64,000 bases of DNA, taken from Blastobasis lacticolella. Its lineage: Eukaryota > Arthropoda > Insecta > Lepidoptera > Blastobasidae. The position numbers were made by a program, and so were the translations under genes. Positions 4,452-21,640 of the stretch are shown piece by piece. Under the pieces are notes generated by a model. It did no database searches. It saw only the letters and a program-made list of their open reading frames with translations, and was not told the origin of the DNA. The stretch spans positions 16,281,349 through 16,345,348 of the forward strand of contig LR990058.1 in the NCBI GenBank assembly GCA_905147135.1, written 5' to 3'. Position 1 is the stretch's first letter, and the number at the start of each line of letters is the position of its first letter.

Positions 4452-5175
4452 CGGTGCAGCGTCAACATCAGGCTGCAACGGCGTAGGTATAAATGACTGG
4501 CACGGCATCACGGGGCCGGAACAGCATGGGGTATCTGATGCAGCATCTACAGGCTGCACAGAGCAGGGAATACTGCCGCGGCAACACGGGGCCGGGTCAG
4601 CATGAATGTATACTGATGCAGCGTCACAGGCTGCAACAGAGCAGGGAAAACCGCCGCGGCAACACGAGGCCGGGACAGTTCATAAGGTAAACTGGTGCAG
4701 CGTCGTTGGCTGCAACAGCATTGAGGGTTACTGCCACGGCACACGGGGCCGGGTCAGCGTAATAAGTAGTATAAACTGGTGCATCATCACTGGCTGCAAC
4801 AGCATGAGGGTTACTGCCACGGCACACGGGGCCGGGTCAGCGTAATGAGTAGAATAAACTGGTGCAGCATCACTGGCTGCAACAGCATGAGGGTTACTGC
4901 CACGGCACACGGGGCCGGGTCAGCGTAATGAGTAGAATAAACTGGTGCAGCATCACTGGCTGCAACAGCATGAAGGGTTACTGCCACGGCACACGGGGCC
5001 GGGTCAGCTTAATAGGTATACTGGCACAGCACAGTAAATAAGGTTCAGTTTATGTTGGAGTGCAACATAACTGGTAAATATAATAGGTTACTGGTGCAGC
5101 GTCATATGGCTGCATCAGCATAAGGGTTACTGCCACGGCAACGAGGCCGGGACAGTGTAATAGGTATACTGGCAC
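4452..5175. repeat. GC-rich 83-bp tandem array
   Basis: Units start 'ctggtgcagc' and contain 'ggctgcaacagcatgag' and 'cacacggggccgggtcagc'. Adjacent unit starts at 4776, 4859 and 4942 give a period of 83 bp. Outer units are more diverged, and the array breaks up after about 5030 with one further unit near 5090-5170. Overlapping open frames on both strands here are a by-product of the repeat period and are not genes. Confidence 0.85.
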
Positions 5176-5329
5176 ACATGGCACAGTATATAAAGGTTCA
5201 GCCGGTTGGAGTACAACCTAACTGTTAAAAGTGCTGGGTAAAGCAATAAAGTAAAAGTCCAGGAAGGTTATTGCTGGGTAACAGCAAAAATACAATTTCA
5301 GTGAATGTCAGGCCGTAACATTACTGTTA

Positions 5330-5925
5330 AAGGTAGATGCTGGGGACAGCAACAAAATGGTAAATTTCAGTAGATGTTAGGTGATAACATCACTGTTATG
5401 AAGTAGATGCTGGAGTGCAGCAACAAAAGGGTAAATATCAGTAGATGTTAGGTTATAACACCACTGTTATGAAGTAGATGCTGGAGTGCAGCAACAATAG
5501 GGTAAATTTCAGTAGATGTTAGGTTATAACATCACTGTTATGAAGTAGATGCTGGTGTGCAGCAACAAAAGGGTAAATTTCAGTAGATGTTAGGTGATAA
5601 CATCACTGTTATGAAGTAGATGCTGGAGTGCAGCAACAAAAGGGTAAATATCAGTAGATGTTAGGTTATAACACCACTGTTATGAAGTAGATGCTGGAGT
5701 GCAGCAACAATAGGGTAAATTTCAGTAGATGTTAGGTTATAACATCACTGTTATGAAGTAGATGCTGGTGTGCAGCAACAAAAGGGTAAATTTCAGTAGA
5801 TGTTAGGTGATAACATCACTGTTATGAAGTAGATGCTGGAGTGCAGCAACAAAAGGTAGACAAGTAAATGTTAGGGTGTAACACTACTGTTATAAAGTAG
5901 ATGCTGGTATGCAGCAACAATAGGG
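5330..5925. repeat. 71-bp tandem array with 213-bp higher-order structure
   Basis: 'aagtagatgctgg' recurs at 5401, 5472, 5543, 5614, 5685, 5756 and 5827, an exact 71-bp period. Three unit variants (differing in 'aaaaggg'/'aataggg', 'atatcag'/'tttcag', and 'ttataacacc'/'ttataacatc'/'tgataacatc') occur in the order 1-2-3-1-2-3, so 5401-5613 is repeated as 5614-5826. Flanking units are degenerate. Confidence 0.9.
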
Positions 5926-7565
5926 ATAAAATGAAAATATCTGTAAGAGTCTGCTTACAGTAAGTATAGTCTATAAAAATAATAAAAAACTTTTATTGGA
6001 CCGCAAGCTGTAACATAGATGTAGATATGTGACTGGAACCACGTCGCACAACTTGGAACCTAAAAATAGAATCAAAAAAAAAATTTGAGAAATCCTGAAA
6101 TAAAAATTTAAAGCACCCTCAAGCAAAGCTGAAGATAGTGAAGGCCAAAAACGCTGAAATAAGTGCACAGCTGAAAATTATAAGCAAGGGCAATCACCTA
6201 TAAGCTGTAGTTTAAAGTTGTAGTAGGTAAATATTATTTTAAAAGAAATCCAGCTGTAATTCCCAAAAGCAGTTGAAAGAAGTAAAGTTTTAAGTCATAA
6301 GGTTATAAGTAGGTATGCATGATCGATCAGTACAAAATTATCATAATTAATTTTTAGAGAAAATCAAAATTTAAATTTTTAAAAATTTGCAATGAATGTG
6401 AAATTTATTCCATAATAAAAATATTCTTTATCTATATGAACAAATGTAGGTATAGTATAACTGTCAACACAATATAATATGAGTCCAAGTTGGCTAGCGA
6501 GGAGCCAGTCTTAATATTAGATTTTAAGTTTTTCAAGCGGGTTCCATACAACAAAAGTACAAATAGTTACATACCTTGTAACAAGTATGTTTAAATAATA
6601 AAGTAAAAGTTAATGAGAGATAAGTTACTACATGTCAGTAAAACAAGTAGGTATAAATAACCAAATCAAGTTACTCAATGTGACTTGTTACATAGTATCT
6701 TGTAAAACAGACCTATAGAAAAATTAAGGTGTACATACCTAACTAAATTCTTAAAAGTAATAGTTACTTAATGATCCAATGTGAAAATCAGTTCTGTGTT
6801 TATCATCACACTTATTAATAAAAATACTATGTTTAAATAGTGTAATAAACTAAGTAGGTAAGAACTTACTTACTAAAGTTATAGTAGTATCCATACTATG
6901 TATGGTGTACAAAACTAAAATAATAAAATTTGTTGCAACAAAATTGAACCTAAATTAAATGAAAACAAAACAATATATGAAAAATATTCAATTTTATTAC
7001 AACAAAAGTGCCTTTGCCTTGACCCCCGTGTCAGTTACTTATGTTATTCTAGATAAATAACATTTAAAATATTCAAATAATTTGACTTCAGCCACTTACT
7101 GTGACTAAAATTGTTATACTTATTAGGTAAGTATGTATGTATGATGCAGCAAAGTAAATAAATAAACTTGAATGAAGGAATCGATAATTAAAAAGTGAAC
7201 TCATCACATAAGAATGTTTATGAGTTACACTCAAAAAAAACTACTGCATCAAATGGAAATAAAAAAAAATCTCCTCAACCAGTCAGAACTATTTAAAATG
7301 CCTATAGCCTTAGCATTTAGCCAAAAATAAATTGTTTAAATGTAGCAGAGCTACAATGATATATTACAAGTACTTATTAAAATAATGCTTGCAAGTTATT
7401 TAGTACACTGTCCTTAAGTAGACCTAATACTGTAAAAATATTAACATTTACCAAAATAAGTAATAAACCATTAAACTTAAATCTATTAAGCAATGGTGAA
7501 TATACGTTATCGATCAGACTCCAATTATGTAGCAAAAACTCAAAATTGTGAGTATACTCTCTAAT
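5926..7565. other. Non-coding 5' interior of the LTR element
   Basis: AT-rich with no retroelement reading frame. It is the element's leader region downstream of the primer site on the minus strand; a packaging signal would be expected here but I cannot identify one. Confidence 0.55.
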
Positions 7566-7583: not shown

Positions 7584-9560
7584 TGTAATGTTTATATTTT
7601 TGCTCATGTAATGTTTATATTTTTAGTGGGTGAAGTTGCGCTTAACCTAGAGGCTCGGAATGAAAGATGGTGTTTGAATTTGAAAGCACTGCTTTATTAG
7701 CATCGAGTTTGATTACACACAAAATGTCCTTAGGTTATAGCGGCTATAAATAATCAAATTACAGATTATATTAATACAAGGGTTACATAGAGGGTTTGAT
7801 CGATAACGCATACGAGGAGTCTATAATATTTTATATTTAAATTCACTCAGCTGCCAGTCAAGGAGTCTTGACTAAAGTCGAGCAGGAGCATCCCCTGAAG
7901 CAGCTGGCTAAAACTGCTCCAAGCGGACGGCTGTCCAACCCCAATTATGGGCTGGTACCAAGCACCTCCTGAAATGATCACACCGTTGCAATCATTCAGG
8001 GGGGAAAATAATATAAAGGAAGCGAGCAATCTATTCGTTCTCAGCTGGCTTTGGGGGGAAATGGGTGTGACAATAGGCTGTCAATAACAGGGGTAGAGAA
8101 GCAAAAGCGTGCGGCATGCCAGGCTAGCGGCATAACCTCCAACGCCAGATGATGTAAGGTGGCAGGATTTAGCAAAGGCAGTGCAGCACGCGGTCACGCC
8201 AGGTTGCGTGGCATAACCTCGAACATCAGATGATGATGGGTGGCAAAAACAAGCAAAGCACTGTAACACGCGGTCACGACAGGTCGCGCGGCATAACCTC
8301 CAACACCAGATGATGATGGGTGGCAGAAATAAGCAAAGCACTGTAACACGCGGTCACGACAGGTCGCGCGGCATAACCTCCAACGACATAACGTGGCATA
8401 ACGACAAGACGGGGCCATGCTAGGCCACGCGTGGCACAGCTTCAATCACTTAACAGCGGGATGGAGAAATAGCCAAGTAAAGCTTGCTTACCTGTTGGAG
8501 GTGGGTCCCAAAGCTTCCTACGCGTCGCGGCCACTGGCGACGGGCGTAGGCAACTGGGCGCGGGACGGTAGGAGGCGTGCCTCCTACACTACGTCGGCTG
8601 AAAACACCAAAAAGGTTAACATGGGCTTCATCGCGCCACGCGGATGTCAACAAGCCATCGCGATATGCTACTTACGTGGGAAATTCCGGGAGAATACTCT
8701 CACCACCAACTACCGCAGTGTCCCGTTTATTTGAAAAGGTGACAGGCTAGCATGTGCTGCGCAGTCGCATGTGCGTGGCCGCCTTTCGGGCAGGACGTAG
8801 CCGACAACACGTGGACACAATATTTTCCACAATATCTATCACTATTCTGACTGGTTCTGCTGAAAATATTAAGGAATTAGCACCGCGCAAACAAACAACA
8901 ATGAAATCTAGCGGCTCCGATAACACTTACGAGATTCACTAGGTATTTATTTTTAACAAGACACCAGTAACTGTGGGGGCTTCGGTCAGGCAAAAGGACG
9001 GAGAACCCGCGTGCTCCGGGCTTTATTCCTCGGCCTCCGCCCTAACCTACTCGCCAATAAAACCTATAACAAAAAAACGGCTTGGGGTTGTCAAGCTATA
9101 ACTTTTATCGAAATTCAGCGAAAGGTTAAAAATCATACAGCCAAACGGTGACGCTAGAAACGAACAATTCAAATTAAGGTGAAAGCCAAGTTTCACCCAA
9201 ATAAAAGGATTACAGGCAACCTGAAACGAATCTATGTAATATAAATTGACGTAATTCCGATTCAACTCCATCGGAACCTGTAATAAAAAGACCAAAGACC
9301 ATTTTGGTGATTCCGAGATAAAACAAATTATCCATTCTATAACATTCCAGTTATAGAATGTAAAATATAAAAAGAAAAGAATGAAATGGAATCAACCATA
9401 ATAAAAATATTTATTAGTTTATTTATTTCTGCAGGAAATTAGTTTTATGTCAGCAACACCAGCGTTTAGTTTTCTAAAAATTGACAATTCGGCAAAGGGA
9501 ATCAGTCATCATACAGCCATGCGTTGACTGATATTTCTCAGTCGAGAAATATATGTTACA
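7584..9560 (-). repeat. 5' LTR of the LARD-like element
   Basis: Partner of 1062-3038. It is bounded on the left by the primer site and on the right by the CTAC duplication. The 80-bp internal repeats recur at about 8129-8392. A promoter and polyadenylation signal are expected within it but I did not identify them with confidence. Confidence 0.9.
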
Positions 9561-14237: not shown

Positions 14238-14530
14238 GGGAATCAGAATCAGAATCAGAAATCATTTATTGTGTAACTGTAGTGTACATTGTAGGTGATA
14301 TTTTATTTATAACAGAACTATATCAGTTTACCCAAATTTGGGTGTACAATAGTATATTATAATATTACAATTTCCATTACTATTAAACTAATAATGTCAT
14401 AACAATATTTAGATTATGTCAATTCAATTACAAGTAATTATGTCATGTTTGTGTACAATAAAGAATAAAGAATAAAGAAAGAATAAAGAATGTCATCATA
14501 ATATCCAATTATTGTCACAGATTGAAAAAT
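14238..14530 (-). mobile_element. SINE-like insertion in LINE-A with 8-bp target duplication
   Basis: The 8-mer TGGCACGA flanks the insert (14230-14237 and 14531-14538). Removing the insert and one duplicate rejoins the LINE-A frame at the codons for TGRA-IVEESRE. On the minus strand the insert ends in (TGATTC)n, the typical simple-repeat tail of lepidopteran retroposons; a second run of 'gaataaa' units lies near its other end. No coding content. Confidence 0.85.
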
Positions 14531-16050
14531 TGGCACGACCCGTATAAAAGGCGTCTCCAGTACTGTCATCCGCATAGCAATGAATGCCGTCAATGGACAG
14601 CATATCATTGATATGAAGGAGGAACAGGGTTGGAGACAGCACCGAGCCTTGCGGGACACCAGTATTAATGTCCAAGCTATCGGAGCAACAGCCGTCAACT
14701 ACAGCTTTGATGCATCTGCTGGACAAAAAGCTAGTTACCCACTTGCACAATCCCTCGGGAAGCCCGTATGATGGTAACTTCGATAGAAGACCCCTATGCC
14801 AGAGCCGATCGAACGCCTTCGCCATATCAAGGCCAACAGCCAGTGCCTCACCTTGACTCTCAACAGCTAAAGCCCAACGGTGTGTTAGATACACTAGAAG
14901 ATCACCCGTTGAGCGACAATGTCGGAAACCATATTGACGGTCGCTCAAGAGATCGTGCTCTTCTAGGTAACCAAGGAGCTGTGCGTTTATTACTCGCTCC
15001 ATCACCTTAGAGAGAAGGGAGGTTATAGCGATAGGCCTGTAATTCGATGGGTCTGATCTGTCGCCCTTTTTGGGCACAGGGTGCACGTGGGCAGTCTTCC
15101 ATGAAGACGGAACTATTCCAGTCGAGTATGAAAGCGCAAATAGGCGCGTTAGTACCGGACACAATTCGGGAGCACACACTTTAAGCACCACTGCCGGAAT
15201 ACCATCAGGCCCACTCGACTTTCGAACGTCTAGAGAGAGCAGAGCCCGCCGTACCTTTCGCTGTGAAATGGATATTTCCGGCATTGATTTGCCGCACCAC
15301 GGGATGGTGGACGGGTCGGCTCCTCCGTCATTCAGGGTCGAGTTTGAGGCAAAGAGAGCACGTAATAAATTGGCTTTCTCTATTGCACTATGGGCCAGGG
15401 TATCATCAGGTTTACGCAGTGGTGGAAAGGACGACTGACTAAAGTTTTCTTCGGCAGCTTCGGCGAGCGACCAGAAAGCCCGACTACCAGAGGGGTAGCT
15501 CGTGAGACGCTCGCCAATTCTGCTAACGAAGGCGAATTTTGCTCTAGCGATAGCTCTCTTGCTGTTCCTCGAGGCAGCATTTAACTTCCGCTTTGCATCA
15601 GCAATATTCGGGTCCTGATTGAGACGAGCAGTGGTCCAAGTTTCGTACGCAGATTGCTTCGCTCGTCGAGCCTCTCTGCATGGCCAATTAAACCACGGTC
15701 GTCTCCGTGCCCCAGCAGCCACTAGCGGGTTAGGAATGAAGCAGTCCATACCCGCTAAGATGGTCTCGGTGACTGCGTTGGCACAGGTATCAGGATCATC
15801 CGATGCAAAGCAGAGCTGCTTCCACGGGTACGATGCGTAAAATTCACGCAATCCATCCCAGTCTGCTGACTTATAATGCCAAACACGACGCCATCCAGTG
15901 GGCCCGGGAGAGTCGGATAGTGTACAAGGCACTTGTGTGCGCACAAGGCAATGATCCGACGAGCCAAGAGGCGCATCCACGGAGATGGAGTACCCACTAG
16001 GGCGCGTAGTCAGCAGAAGGTCCAGCAAGGAGCTTGTATGGTCCTCAAAC
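14531..16050 (-). CDS. LINE-A ORF2, endonuclease C-terminus and reverse transcriptase
   Basis: An uninterrupted frame enters from the viral junction at 16050 and runs to the SINE junction. Counting from the first Met (16028): the endonuclease end motif SSDH at residues 23-26; reverse transcriptase motifs SSGPDG at 271, YRPIA at 330, GLDMAKAFD at 399-407 (catalytic Asp in motif A), GVPQGSVLSP at 457-466, and YADD at 485-488 (catalytic motif C). The protein would nick target DNA and copy its RNA there. There is no real start here: the codons before the Met (EDHTSS) belong to the same protein, whose first part lies beyond the viral block. All catalytic residues are intact. Confidence 0.9.
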
Positions 16051-16076
16051 AGGAAAGTTTTCGATCTCGAAAGTTA
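16051..16076. repeat. Left junction inverted repeat (host-integration-motif-like)
   Basis: Read inward-to-outward it is TAACTTTCGAGATCGA followed by AAACTTTCCT. The right junction has TAACTTTCAACATCGA then AATTATCCCT. LINE-A sequence begins immediately outside ('gtcctcaaac', 16041-16050). Confidence 0.8.
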
Positions 16077-17078
16077 GTGACATATAAATATATATAAATA
16101 TATGTGTAGCGAATTTAATTTTTGAATAAATTATTTACTATTTAGATATAAGTGTAAAACAATTTGCGAATAAAGATGATAGTGTATAGCTTTTTACGAT
16201 TAGAATTAAAATTGTGAACAGATGAGGCCCAATTATATTTAATATAAGGGAAAATATTCACAGAACAACAGCAGAGTAGGTAAAGAAAATAAAAACTCGT
16301 TAAACCCGTATGAAGAGGAAATTTTTTGGGAAATACAATATATGAGCACAAAATTATCCTTATCGACCGTAACATTTCAGATATAAATAATTTCTTCGTG
16401 TATCGATATTGTAACTTTATACCTAACTATAAGATAAAATAATTATAACTATAAAATAACGAATACTGGGAATTTCAAAGCGATAAGCCCATAACCAATT
16501 GTTGATTGACGAATGTGTTCTTGATTAAATAAACAATTCTGGAATACCCAGTAATGAGGTCATGATGGTTAATTTCATTTACAATAAGTAATAAAGATAT
16601 CGACACTTGTTCACTTCAAATATCGTTGGTACCTACAAATTTGGATCGACAGTGTGCCTATTTTACTATCGGTCAACATTGACCTGTGAACTGGGTTTTT
16701 CCCAGAATATCACAATAATATTGCCAACGTTTAAAGAATAGCTATTACAGTATGATATAATATGGACCTATTTTACCTAGAGCTATGGTCACTACAGGAA
16801 AAATAAAATTAATTATTCATACAATACCGTTTTCAAACCACGTCCCGAGCCACAACGACCAATTGTGAGTGAGTAATTTGGTCCTAGTAGCCCAAGATAA
16901 ACTATAATGAACTATAAACTCTCCATTAGCTAAATACTTATCAGCTTTTAGGTTTATTATCGTTTTCCTACGTCAATTGCTATCAATTCATTTTAATATT
17001 TTGAGTTGCAAGGATGATATTAAAAAGTGTGTAGAAGGAGGGAGTAATAAAAAATTATTAATATGTTAATTAAATAAC
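16077..17078. other. Viral block, left non-coding part
   Basis: About 1 kb of AT-rich sequence with no credible frame. The density of coding sequence (two genes in 5 kb) is typical of bracovirus circles, which are mostly non-coding. Confidence 0.55.
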
Positions 17079-17084
17079 TTTAAT
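17079..17084 (-). terminator. Possible polyadenylation signal for the PTP
   Basis: ATTAAA on the minus strand, about 80 nt past the PTP stop. It is a weak variant signal in AT-rich sequence, so only tentative. Confidence 0.35.
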
Positions 17085-17163
17085 TTAAGGTAAAACACTT
17101 ATAATAATTATAACAATCTCAATACTGAAAAACTAGTCTTAAAAATAAATTACAATATGAATA

Positions 17164-17922
17164 CTATGCTTTTTTAGAAGCTAATTTAACATATTCTAAA
17201 ATTGTAAGATAACAAAATACATAATAAGTGGACAAAGATAAGCAGTTGTTTCTTTGCTTGCGGAGATCTCTTACTACTGTTGCTAGATCGATGGTCGAAC
17301 TCTCATTGTATCTCGATATGCTGATGTCTAGAGCGCAGAAAGCTCCTGTGCGATTTAATCCAGCAGAGCAGTGGACCACCATAGGAGGAAAGTTGGAACT
17401 CTTGTTATCAAACTCCACATGTGCTTGAGCCTTTCTGACTTTGAGAACAAAGTTAAGAAAGTTTGATCGGCTTTGAGGCACGCTTTTATGAGGCCAATCG
17501 GTGTAAGTGAAGTGTGTGAGGTCTAATGAGTCTCCACTGTCGTCTGTCATCCGTAGCTTGGTCACTATATGGTTACAAAAGGTCTTTACTTTCTTTGTTT
17601 CAATGATGAAGTCACCGAACCACACTGTCCTTCCTTTCTTCGGGTCCCAGTACTGGTAACAGACTTCCTGTTCTTCTTCGTGTGTTTTTGTCAACATAAC
17701 GATAACTCTGGATTGATATCCAAACACCATTTTCCAAAAATCTTCGGCTGTTGACTGAAGTGGGCCCTGACAGCACAAATACTTGCCTCGAGTTTTGTAC
17801 CCGTTGACGTGATTGGCGTTAATATAGTCGCTTTCTCCGTTTTCTGCTGGTAAGATCACTCTGTTATGATCAAAACAAGGTAAAAACCAGTATCTATTTT
17901 TCAAAATATTTTCTTCCTTCAT
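17164..17922 (-). CDS. PTP: Bracovirus-type protein tyrosine phosphatase, WPD aspartate lost
   Basis: Intact 252-residue frame from the first in-frame ATG. It is a single classical PTP domain without introns, transmembrane segment or regulatory domain, as in bracovirus PTPs, which are injected effectors acting on phosphotyrosine signalling in host cells (for example haemocytes). Visible motifs: KNRY at 8-11 with DHNRV at 18-22 (phosphotyrosine loop), DYINAN at 32-37, QGPLQSTAEDFW at 52-63, and the signature HCSAGLNRTG at 184-193 with nucleophile Cys185 and Arg191. Odd: the WPD loop reads WPH (143-145), so the general-acid Asp is His, and the Q-loop position usually held by Gln looks like Tyr233. 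It may therefore bind rather than efficiently hydrolyse phosphotyrosine. About 54 residues short at the N-terminus compared with the roughly 300 usual for the family; see the upstream entry. Function in the present host is unknown. Confidence 0.88.
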   Translation of the reverse strand: MKEENILKNRYWFLPCFDHNRVILPAENGESDYINANHVNGYKTRGKYLCCQGPLQSTAEDFWKMVFGYQSRVIVMLTKTHEEEQEVCYQYWDPKKGRTVWFGDFIIETKKVKTFCNHIVTKLRMTDDSGDSLDLTHFTYTDWPHKSVPQSRSNFLNFVLKVRKAQAHVEFDNKSSNFPPMVVHCSAGLNRTGAFCALDISISRYNESSTIDLATVVRDLRKQRNNCLSLSTYYVFCYLTILEYVKLASKKA

Positions 17923-18079
17923 CGATATGCTGCAACTGTACTCAACTTTTTCGTCTAATATTCTCCGTTGTTCTTGTTCGAGGATCTTGATTATTCTTTC
18001 TTCATTGTAACTAACGCCAGATTCTTTTTTCGTATTAATCTTTTGAAATCTTTTTAAATTTTTTTTGACATTTATACAT
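17923..18079 (-). pseudogene. PTP N-terminal coding remnant with a frame offset
   Basis: The PTP frame stays open for a further 53 codons upstream of the ATG at 17922, up to a stop at 18082-18084, and reads like PTP N-terminal sequence (charged, with EQEQRRILDEKVEY just before the ATG), but contains no ATG. The only well-placed ATG, 18077-18079, is in a frame shifted by one base; the frames would meet at the run of eight T at 18059-18066. So the original start was probably at 18079 and a one-base slip broke it, leaving 17922 as the first usable start. A sequencing error in the homopolymer is the alternative. Confidence 0.65.
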
Positions 18080-18086
18080 TTTTAAA

Positions 18087-18229
18087 TAAGTTTTACAATT
18101 GTGTAATTTTCTATAAGATTGTATCCATTTTGACGATCTCTTTTATAGATATATGATGATAAATGTAATATTATTATGTAAACTGTAGAAGAGTAATAAA
18201 TAAATCTAAATCTAAATCTAAATCCCACC
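18087..18229 (+). mobile_element. Short retroposon in the PTP 5' leader
   Basis: 143 bp ending in a (CTAAAT)n tail, flanked by the 10-bp duplication CATTTTTAAA (18077-18086 and 18230-18239). A 3' tail plus a target duplication is the mark of LINE-mediated insertion. It lies within the viral block, so it arrived after (or in the wasp before) integration. I could not match its body to another copy in the window. Confidence 0.75.
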
Positions 18230-18272
18230 CATTTTTAAAAATTTATTTTCACAGGATGAGAGTCCTTGTTTC

Positions 18273-18305
18273 GACTGAAGATCAGTATCGACTGAAAATA
18301 TTATA
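18273..18305 (-). promoter_or_regulatory. Probable PTP promoter (TATA and initiator)
   Basis: On the minus strand TATAATA (18305-18299) is followed about 28 nt later by TTCAGTC (18279-18273), which matches the arthropod initiator. If the retroposon is ignored, the leader from here to the ATG at 18079 would be about 53 nt, close to the 52 nt seen for the ankyrin gene. The retroposon now adds about 150 nt to that leader. Confidence 0.5.
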
Positions 18306-19077
18306 CTGATCGTGACACATTTATACTAATGAATTTCAGCATTAATATTAACTTTTTCCTCCCTGAATGAACAATTTAACCAATATGACGCACGAGGTTT
18401 CAGTTTATTGAGTTTGATATTTATTTCAACATCATTAAAAATTAATTTTATCTATAAAAATTCCCATGTGGTTAATTAACAAGCCTATCAGTGAGTTCAA
18501 ATGTTATCATGAACTTCTCTTCCTTTAAAAACCTTACAAATTACAATTAAAACCCTTTATTTGGAGTTTAGGAAACTAAAGCGATGATATGGAGCATCAT
18601 GTTTCAGTATATGAAATTAACTATTTCTTATATTATTTAACATTACTAATTTTCAAGTAATACTTCCTCTACAGGAAGTGAATCACCATAATGTAGTTAA
18701 CTTTAGGCAGTCAAAGGACCAATATAAATAGGATTTCTCTATGAATTGTATCATAACTTTATTTTTGATTGTACGAACAGTACCTTTGATTTTTTTTCTG
18801 ATTTTTGAAAGAAAAATTTAAAAAGAGGAAGGGTGTAATTGTATCGAAAGCTCTGCAAAAGATAAGACAGGTGAACAAAGACTCTATCAGCCAAGCAGAG
18901 AATTAAGTTTTTTGTTACAACGTATGACATAAATTCGTTATAAACAATATGAAGTAATGTAGATTGGTAACGTCCCATATGGAGCACGCGGTAATTCGGA
19001 CGGCGATAACATTTAACCTATGGGAAAACCCGCGATAGAAAGTATTTTTGTTTATGAATCCCTCTATATCAGCCGAC
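18306..19077. other. Intergenic region between the divergent viral genes
   Basis: AT-rich. The 'cagtatcgactgaaaatatt' area near 18283 repeats 'tcgactga'. Open frames here (for example 78 codons on the minus strand at 18751-18987) have no recognisable content. Confidence 0.45.
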
Positions 19078-19106
19078 TATATAAGAGTCTTCCAGTAGGA
19101 AGCAGT
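19078..19106 (+). promoter_or_regulatory. Ankyrin gene promoter (TATA and initiator)
   Basis: TATATAA at 19078-19084 precedes GCAGTATT at 19102-19109, an initiator-like sequence, with 26 bp from the first T to the likely start A at 19104. This leaves a 52-nt leader before the ATG at 19156. Confidence 0.65.
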
Positions 19107-19155
19107 ATTATTGCGATTCGGGACTTCAAGAAGTGACATCTTACTCTCTCTAAAA

Positions 19156-19689
19156 ATGGATTCTGATAAATTAAACGACACATTCGGTCCAGATCCTACA
19201 AGCAGAAACTATACGATATTCCATTTGATTGCTAAATCTGACTGTCACGATATTTTGGATAGAATATATAACCATTCTGGAGATAAAGACTTTCAGCACA
19301 TACTAAAACTCAAGGATGACGACGGAAACACGTGTCTCCATACTGTCGTAAGGTGCCGAAGTGGAAGTGATGCTGACGATATGATATCGTTGATGGTAGC
19401 TATGGGAGCAGACTTGAATGCCCAGGATAATGCAGGAGACACTGTTTTGCATAAAGCAGTGAAAAAGGGGGACCACGAGCTGATAGAAGGATTAGTAGAG
19501 ATGCACGCCGATAAAGACATTAATAATGAAGATGGATTGACGGCTTATCAAATTGCTGAGCAAAACAATGATGAAGAAATAATGAAGATGCTTATAATGA
19601 AGATTGAAGAAAATAATAGTTCTGGATGTTCAGTAAGCCCGTTTAACTTAAGTGAAATTCTAGGTTTTCTATCAAATTCAACAGATTAA
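19156..19689 (+). CDS. Viral ankyrin protein (IkappaB-like, vankyrin type)
   Basis: 177 residues from an ATG in good context (AAAATGG) 52 nt after a clear promoter. The frame is open for 15 more codons upstream but only with TTG, so 19156 is chosen. Four ankyrin-type units: about 19-50 (TIFHLIAKSDCHDILDRI), 56-91 (DGNTCLHTVV ... MGADLNAQD), 93-124 (AGDTVLHKAVKKGDHELIEGLV) and 126-149 (DGLTAYQIAEQNNDEEIMKML). There is no signal peptide, no N-terminal phosphodegron and no C-terminal PEST region. That is the known design of polydnavirus ankyrins, which resemble IkappaB without its degradation signals and can hold NF-kappaB (Dorsal/Relish) inactive in host cells. The frame is intact, so it may still be expressible in the present genome. 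Identity as an IkappaB-like ankyrin is firm; the bracovirus source is inferred from the neighbouring PTP and junctions. Confidence 0.88.
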   Translation: MDSDKLNDTFGPDPTSRNYTIFHLIAKSDCHDILDRIYNHSGDKDFQHILKLKDDDGNTCLHTVVRCRSGSDADDMISLMVAMGADLNAQDNAGDTVLHKAVKKGDHELIEGLVEMHADKDINNEDGLTAYQIAEQNNDEEIMKMLIMKIEENNSSGCSVSPFNLSEILGFLSNSTD

Positions 19690-19756
19690 CTACTTTTATT
19701 TTTACTTGTGAATTGTGCAAGCTTTGATTTTATAAGCCATAGTTTTTAAGTGTTTT

Positions 19757-19762
19757 ATTAAA
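19757..19762 (+). terminator. Possible polyadenylation signal for the ankyrin gene
   Basis: ATTAAA about 67 nt after the stop. A canonical AATAAA occurs only at 19982-19987. Confidence 0.4.
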
Positions 19763-21053
19763 TGGGTGAATGATAATTGTAATTAGAATGTATAAGTTTT
19801 AAATGATTATAATCTTTTACCCTTATAAATTTATCTGTATAAATTTTGCGTGGGCATAAACGGATGTCCTTTGGTTAACCAGTACCTAAAGTTCTTATCA
19901 ACGAACACTGAGGGAAACCAACCCGTAACTATGATTCAGAATGGGTACTTTTGATAGGAATTGTCACTGCAATTTTCTCAAAATAAAACGATTCGCATGT
20001 CTCTCGTTTTAGGTCTTTGAAAAAATAAAAACAGGGTTACATATTAAATCCTTAATTTCATTAGGTGTTTAAAAAAATTTTTTACAAATTCCTTACATAA
20101 CTTTGGTATCTTTAGTTTATTTATAAAATACAATCACACTAGAAATTACATAAATCTTATACTAACTTATCTTATGACTGAATTTATTCTAAAAAAATAT
20201 TAATAATAATACCATCAGTCGTGATAAGTATAAGGATGCAGAGAAATTTCAGTTTTTTATCTAAAATCCAATATCTTTTTCTAAATTATGTTTTACTTAA
20301 CTTTTTAAGTACTATTCGATCTTACAATGAAATGTTCTTAGAACTACGTTTACATTTTACGGGCAAAGACACATACTTAATGAATCTTCAAATTAAACAA
20401 ATTTAGTTAATAAAAAAATTCATGTTTTGTTTATTTTAAGTTTACAATAAATATTTTTTTCTGTTTAGATTATTTTATTATTTTTTATTTAACTGTCAAA
20501 CGTGATAGTTCCTCCAAATCACTTAGAGCTAACACACGTATGAGTAATTAAATTTTTCAAGGATTCTTTGTTCGTAAAAAATGCAAATACGCTCAATATT
20601 TCATCACTAAATATCAAAAATTTATTTAATACACAACCAGAAGATCACTATTAAAAAAATTAAAATTTTGAGTTAAAATACTATAGATAAAGGTCACAAA
20701 TCAATAGTCATAATTTCCGTGAGCCCTTAGTTCAAACATGATATCAATTTTAAAAAACTACAGCAGGAAAAAGACTTCACTAACTTATAAATAGTTCCAT
20801 TTACAAGATCTTATTAGTGAGCAACCGACTGGAGGCAAAAGAAATAAGATTTGACCTGAGCCTGATCCCAGCATTGAAAAACCCGAATGTTAAATAATAG
20901 GATGATAAAAATATTACTAAGCGGCAAATATCTTGAGGAAAAAAGGTTCCAAAAAGAATCACTTTGTAGGGTTTTGAACGTGCTGAATGACACACAATTT
21001 TGCAGTTAAAAAAAAATTTCTTTAAATTTACAAATTTAATTGGTTTGAAATTT
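19763..21053. other. Viral block, right non-coding part
   Basis: Very AT-rich with no credible gene; a 61-codon frame at 20221-20406 is unsupported. If the circle was complete, its wasp-excision junction may lie here or in the left non-coding part. Confidence 0.45.
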
Positions 21054-21079
21054 TAACTTTCAACATCGAAATTATCCCT
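21054..21079. repeat. Right junction inverted repeat (host-integration-motif-like)
   Basis: TAACTTTCAACATCGA followed by AATTATCCCT, the inverted partner of 16051-16076 (20 of 26 positions match). LINE-A sequence resumes at about 21080 ('gtcaacatctgg'). Confidence 0.8.
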
Positions 21080-21640
21080 GTCAACATCTGGGATTCTAGT
21101 TGGCGAGCGAATCAATTGTGAGAGACCATAGACCAGAGCAAATTCGTGAGCAGACCTTCCCGCATAGTTAGTAGACCGAGAACCGAGCCACTCCGTATGG
21201 TGGGCATTAAAATCTCCTAAAACCACTAACTCAGCGGAAGGATACTGCTCAAATACTTTATCAGTCGTCACTTTCAGGTGCTCAAAAAGTCGCATTGTGT
21301 CCGAGTCACCGCCATGAGACCTGTGTAGGGCTGCGTAGATACGGGTGTGGCCGCCGTAATTCACACGAACCCACATTATCGACAGGTCCCTGTCTTCAAG
21401 GCCGTGTAAACGGCGACAACAGATATCCTCTCGAATGAACATACACACACCGGCACGACGCACAAAATTATGTTCGAGCTTGTACCCGGGGTAAGTAAGA
21501 TATGATGTATCAGCCGGGCAGGATATCTGTGCCAGCGTCAGAAAAAGAAGGGCCGGCTGCGCAGACTCGAGGTGTTCATGCACTGCGTTTTGTGTTGCTA
21601 TGTAGACCCCTAATATTACAAATATCCACCTTCAGTGTGG
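21080..21640 (-). pseudogene. LINE-A ORF2, endonuclease N-terminal half
   Basis: Reads 'VDICNIRGLHSNT' (start of an exonuclease-endonuclease-phosphatase-type domain), then after a one-base slip near 21590 continues through 'LTYPGYKLEHNFVRRAGVCMFIREDI' and the catalytic GDFNAHHTEW to 'RIPDVD' at the viral junction. The remaining frame past 21080 is viral sequence read through by chance to a stop at 21053. The C-terminal SSDH motif of this same domain lies 5 kb away at 16028-15950. Confidence 0.85.

Follow-up and report, generated by a model that had tools for sequence, protein, structure and literature searches.

Wasp-virus DNA is known to integrate into caterpillar chromosomes, where, in the passages cited here, it goes no further or decays to remnants. 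Bracovirus-type genes lie in the germline chromosomes of Lepidoptera such as Danaus, where the cited passages describe rearranged remnants and no complete circles (PMC4574769). In Cotesia wasps, whole J1/J2-bounded segments have been dispersed outside the proviral loci by duplications mediated by the host integration motif (HIM); six of these are reported for one wasp species, with neither further spread nor a target duplication described in the sections of that paper considered here (PMC8549517). A DNA virus turned intragenomic mobile element is represented by Teratorn, a fusion of a fish herpesvirus with piggyBac (PMC10175614). In this work we analysed a 64,000-nucleotide stretch of the Blastobasis lacticolella genome (contig LR990058.1, positions 16,281,349 to 16,345,348; hereafter the window), which contains an element carrying a protein tyrosine phosphatase (PTP) gene and an ankyrin-repeat gene. 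Like the Danaus insertions it places bracovirus-type genes in a germline chromosome, and like the Cotesia duplicates it is a dispersed segment; unlike the rearranged Danaus remnants it belongs to a family of precise, dispersed, repeat-bounded copies, and unlike the Cotesia duplicates this family has a target duplication and appears to have spread further. Unlike Teratorn, which carries a piggyBac transposon, it shows no transposase in the frames read and appears to consist of a virus segment only. Non-autonomous DNA transposons of the terminal inverted repeat (TIR) type have inverted repeats at their ends, a fixed short target duplication, derivatives formed by internal deletion and a presumed mobilisation in trans. 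The element resembles them in all four traits and differs in its cargo, intronless effector-type genes of bracovirus clades.

The element occurs at dozens of places, and every copy read to both ends has matching end repeats and a 3-bp duplication, so this wasp-virus DNA is likely a jumping gene; we regard it as probable that a bracovirus segment has become a dispersed family that moves like a non-autonomous DNA transposon, with the enzyme provided in trans. An earlier note had placed in the window a near-complete bracovirus circle, arrived as one unit at 16051–21079 and splitting a long interspersed nuclear element (LINE). The frames and their Pfam matches confirm a discrete block with PTP and ankyrin genes, each in one uninterrupted frame, that splits a LINE, and its arrival as a single unit with both junctions preserved proved right. 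Its ends had to be corrected: comparison with its relatives sets the unit boundaries at 16049–21081 (5,033 bp in the window copy), and only with these ends, when the element and one CAA are deleted in silico, does the LINE frame run uninterrupted across the site, as joining the LINE at 16051/21079 gives a frameshift. The two terminal inverted repeats are imperfect, being identical at 22 of 28 bp (Table 1).

Table 1. Features of the window copy and its insertion site (positions in the window)
Feature	Position	Strand	Remarks
Host LINE, reverse-transcriptase part	14496..16048	-	RVT_1 match in frame 14496-16028
Left CAA, 3-bp target duplication	16046..16048
Entire mobile element, both end repeats included	16049..21081	+	4,836-4,863 bp in 19/40 paired copies
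Left terminal inverted repeat	16049..16076	+	28 bp, layout 5+15+8
Protein tyrosine phosphatase PTP-A	17164..17922	-	252 aa from first ATG; PF00102 E 3.1e-70
185-bp extra piece	18035..18219	+	TCTAAA-type tail; private to window copy
TATA-like stretch upstream of ankyrin gene, candidate	19077..19085	+	by eye
Ankyrin-repeat protein	19156..19689	+	177 aa; ATG 19156; open at that length in 27/31 copies
Site of extra region in L039	~19771		with fourth PTP (PTP-D, partial frame)
Site of extra region in L043	~20211		~2.2 kb with PTP-B and PTP-C
Right terminal inverted repeat	21054..21081	-	28 bp
Right CAA, 3-bp target duplication	21082..21084
Host LINE, endonuclease part	21085..21583	-	Exo_endo_phos match in frame 21053-21583

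The block is not alone. A DNA search of the species' own genome (577 Mb, 45 contigs), in which 31 of 478 candidates were scored, gave 72 match rows corresponding to 31 loci including the window, the other 30 being taken with about 1 kb of flank each. End-pattern searches found 49 left and 45 right ends, with none for either in the reversed-pattern control, and a relaxed pattern added one left end, making 50. Genome-wide these form 40 left/right pairs in correct order and strand within 40 kb, with spacings from 3,540 to 26,083 bp, 19 of them at 4,836–4,863 bp; 10 left and 5 right ends have no partner, and two of these left ends (contig C6) resemble the second end family discussed below. Two long copies were read whole, and the pairs beyond those read are mostly long. 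An exact 3-bp target duplication flanks every copy with both ends read (26 of 26; 31 were examined, 5 with one end missing), while mispaired ends gave a 3-bp match in 84 of 650 combinations; two longer copies also have such a duplication (AAA and TAT). The duplicated triplet is TAA in 9 of the 26, its third base is A in 22 and TTA was seen in none, which differs from the 3-bp TWA duplicated by PIF/Harbinger elements. The target of piggyBac is TTAA; the 3-bp duplication found in its place, and the lack of a transposase in the Pfam-examined frames, set the family apart from a Teratorn-like fusion. What was found is what characterizes non-autonomous TIR transposons, namely terminal inverted repeats, a fixed 3-bp duplication, dispersed copies with constant ends, and defective copies that were themselves copied. 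That segmental duplication or assembly error made the copies is very improbable: with the exceptions that follow, each copy read to both ends lies in surroundings of its own and has a target duplication of its own, and private mutations or nested inserts occur in many. L017 and L034 (contig C17), which share their left flank, do represent one segmental duplication, and a second-family pair on contig C3 is an inverted duplication including its flanks; apart from L017/L034, segmental duplication was ruled out as a general source of the copies.

The copies also record how they multiplied. L015 (contig C21) and L016 (contig C17) do not differ at any of 4,863 bp, are flanked by different duplications (TAA and TCC, respectively) in surroundings without similarity, and both carry a PTP stop codon that none of the remaining 29 of the 31 aligned copies has; thus a copy whose PTP was broken has itself been copied again. 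Three further copies (L023, L024 and L025) are identical on three contigs. Each of the 31 copies differs from the others by 0.47 to 1.69% on average, the closest pairs being at 0. The copy tree, in which only 6 of the 25 inner branches are strongly supported, contains young groups of 12, 10 and 4 copies that are nested and have zero-length ends, the pattern expected of successive source copies. Between pairs of copies the ankyrin gene diverges by 0.68% on average, the PTP gene by 0.58% and noncoding DNA by 0.70–0.74%. Of the coding changes that copies share, 11 are nonsynonymous, 4 are synonymous and 1 is a stop, which looks neutral.

Longer forms reveal the structure from which the common one arose. 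A 17.9-kb copy (L039, L040) contains PTP-A, a partial PTP-D and fragments resembling PTP-B and PTP-C, and a 20.5-kb copy (L041–L043) has long open frames for PTP-B and PTP-C and a broken PTP-A; both have nested LINEs. In addition, a 173-bp remnant of the PTP-B/C region is present in L036 and L037, and remnants of the PTP-D region are present in L036 and L038, the latter also retaining the PTP-B/C region. The 173-bp and 391-bp extras of L036–L038 were considered as host transposon insertions and proved instead to be remnants of the longer segment. These longer and remnant-bearing copies, which belong to the more diverged part of the set, identify the common 4.86-kb form as the product of internal deletion in a longer segment that has at least four PTP genes. 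The number of loci and the deletion-derivative structure together rule out a lone near-complete circle; the window copy has lost internal sequence, and like its relatives it has transposon-like ends flanked by a target duplication.

The broken-PTP copy at two unrelated sites, a commonest form that is a deletion derivative and the neutral look of the shared coding changes all speak against repeated independent integration, in which circles delivered by wasps would have entered the germ line many times via the HIM with no movement in the lepidopteran. We consider this rather unlikely, even though 12 to 85 HIM-mediated integration events per haploid host genome are reported from parasitised caterpillars in the portion of PMC8549517 cited here, several segment families look amplified (see below) and the element ends resemble HIM repeats. 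The 3-bp duplication also counts against it, as the terms 'target site duplication' and 'target site' are absent from the main text of the integration papers searched, PMC8549517 included; such a duplication is no described feature of integration in those papers, yet it may occur there.

The bracovirus affinity of the family comes from its PTP genes. In a protein search, the best matches of PTP-A are two proteins of Cydia pomonella (84% and 78% identity), followed by an unnamed record (66%), a stick-insect protein (65%) and Glyptapanteles bracovirus PTPs (63%). A PTP tree was built from 44 rows, 3 from the own genome and 41 selected out of 112 proteins from the PTP-A, ankyrin and PTP-B searches; the outgroup does not fall on one side of any branch. 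In this tree PTP-A and PTP-B lie in two separate bracovirus PTP clades (99/94 and 100/99), in both cases adjoining Cydia proteins and apart from cellular PTPs. PTP-C, whose only partner is one Cotesia typhae genome protein (100/99), has long branches and is the weakest of the three placements. The Cydia homologues of PTP-A (P0001) and PTP-B (P0061) are probably on one chromosome, since their contigs are both 23,442,694 in size. For the ankyrin gene, the protein search gave two matches, one Cydia pomonella protein (78%) and a weak one, and a viral origin is suggested by its neighbouring genes only. A scan of a viral-contig collection with PTP and ankyrin yielded no relatives. Several intronless genes amid much noncoding DNA, as in bracovirus segments, are present in the window copy and the longer copies. 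The AGCT of the bracovirus circularisation junction (DRJ/WIM), another trait of such segments, is by itself too short to be diagnostic. Two observations concern the PTP clades themselves. Stick-insect (Bacillus rossius) proteins P0004 and P0064 are inside them, reflecting either contamination or bracovirus-type DNA in a non-caterpillar insect, and Euphydryas editha proteins P0012 and P0068 group within the Cotesia bracovirus PTPs, the position to be expected if this butterfly has bracovirus insertions.

The chromosomes that carry the family are lepidopteran. Chorion_1 is a lepidopteran family of moth eggshell proteins; it has 51 matches in this genome, clustered within about 0.5 Mb (C28:3440044-3943683), and none in 14 control genomes. 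The presence of bracovirus-type genes in a lepidopteran chromosome, as the earlier note had proposed, is therefore supported by the chorion matches and by the positions of PTP-A and PTP-B, and neither of two observations that would have spoken against it, wasp DNA in the flanks or lepidopteran cellular genes as relatives, was made.

How the element moves may be approached through its ends. The layout ACAGG, 15 nt, GAAAGTTA is found at both ends of the first family and also in the second. According to the cited passages, the HIM inverted repeats of the bracoviruses CvBV and CcBV consist of 5 nt (ACCAG) and 8 nt (GAAATTTA), and those of MdBV of 5 nt (ACTAG) and 9 nt (PMC8460044; PMC7843510). Integration of some bracovirus circles is described as requiring two host retroviral-type integrases, and in flies expressing both in hemocytes integration took place after virion injection (PMC8460044). 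An excess of 1–2 bp microhomologies is reported in PMC8549517, besides the J1/J2-bounded duplicates of wasps. We propose that a bracovirus segment likely entered the lepidopteran germ line from a parasitic wasp, that its terminal repeats would descend from the arms of the virus's own HIM, and that a resident DDE-type integrase or transposase may recognise these arms and act in trans. Copying would have taken place in the lepidopteran lineage and not in the wasp, and internal deletion of a longer segment would have produced the short form that dispersed further.

A second end family bears on this scheme. The relaxed end pattern matched 132 ends, 100 of which were listed, and none in the control; a pattern for the second end type matched 78 ends (control 0), 32 of them not among the listed ends of the first family, with sequence read for part of them. 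The second family matches the first at 54 of the first 120 bases, ungapped, has the same 28-bp layout and, in two 600-base pieces sampled at one locus, carries another PTP. At C3:15544322-15552818 (L044–L047) it lies inside an inverted duplication that takes in its flanks, with a PTP of altered active-site signature; this 8.5-kb pair was considered as an autonomous partner of the first family and rejected, being an inverted duplication with its flanks that carries another PTP. A pattern search aimed at further end families gave none. The bracovirus-type DNA between the second ends, with a PTP where sampled, argues against the capture of bracovirus genes by a resident DNA transposon, in which the end repeats would be those of an ordinary transposon and not of the HIM. 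Capture is distinctly unlikely also because neither a cargo-free member nor a transposase with these ends was found (among the few second-family members read, and in two pattern searches that are not exhaustive), although neither a 3-bp duplication nor imperfect inverted repeats would be unusual in a DNA transposon and the HIM match is imperfect.

Ankyrin genes may mark other amplified segments. The window ankyrin has at least 151 matches in its own genome (150 of 384 candidates scored), at about 47 loci with at least 82% identity and at about 40 with 46–51%, 15 of the latter being equal in score, span and frame; the remaining large group is mostly at 28–36%, also with repeated scores. Six of the 32 second-type ends have an ankyrin match within 30 kb on the same strand, in four cases 8.7–9.05 kb inward (32 of the 151 matches compared). 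To judge from these sequences, several segment families look amplified. At seven places, ankyrin matches of about 50% and of 28–30% lie 5.3–10.9 kb apart on the same strand (16 full-length matches compared with 8), as if on a two-ankyrin segment. In a broader form of the proposal, the HIM arms would be working transposon ends and several segments would each have become a trans-mobilised family, bringing effector genes (PTPs and ankyrins) to more than 100 loci, and deletion derivatives would have multiplied more than the full-length forms they come from; we give this form even chances.

Several points weigh against mobilisation of a bracovirus segment as a transposon. The likeness to the HIM amounts to 7 of 8 bases (GAAAGTTA versus GAAATTTA) and 3 of 5 (ACAGG versus ACCAG), in a comparison restricted to the two published repeat units. 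No transposase or integrase was found with first-family ends in two end-pattern searches, which are not exhaustive and leave unread the 26-kb copy and most other long copies, where such an enzyme might lie, and there is none among the Pfam-examined frames of the window copy and L043; the only further end family found bears another PTP where sampled. Many copies of several segments would also be compatible with wasps having delivered them repeatedly, and it is conceivable that a wasp allele had the PTP stop. Finally, the PTP may have been under some constraint, as pN/pS over all pairs is 0.49 (1.23 for ankyrin), and frames near full length are open in 27 of 31 copies for ankyrin and 21 of 31 for PTP, which does not prove selection because divergence is so low.

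If a bracovirus segment has indeed been mobilised as a transposon, it would have become independent in a would-be host with its effector genes as cargo. Among the matches listed in a literature search on bracoviruses with transposon-like terms, no title or abstract opening describes such a family; a 2023 survey reportedly covers polydnavirus insertions in many lepidopteran genomes, and the present finding was not compared with it. The mobile copies show which ends and which 3-bp target are used, so that the enzyme acting on the HIM becomes testable, as does the derivation of polydnavirus integration from a transposon system, a scenario raised in the cited part of PMC8549517. The silencing, expression and population history of the family also become measurable, across tens of natural copies that are nearly identical.

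Both genes of the window copy have individual features. The ankyrin open frame extends over 19111–19689 on the plus strand (Ank_2, E 6.1e-15). The open frame of PTP-A continues without an ATG to 18081. The 185-bp piece, which neither the reference copy nor any of the other 30 has at that place, removes the PTP-A start, leaving an ATG frame shorter than the at least 291 aa found in 21 of 31 copies; copy L032 has a 382-bp insert with a TCTAAA-type tail like that of this piece. The P-loop of the window PTP-A reads HCSAGLNRTG. The WPD loop of PTPs normally carries D, and as H occupies this position here, catalysis by the predicted protein is uncertain. Elsewhere in the window, the same 80-bp unit forms one array at 1605–1862 and another at 8127–8384, at a distance of 6.5 kb, and about 9 tandem copies of a 71-bp unit occupy 5294–5930.

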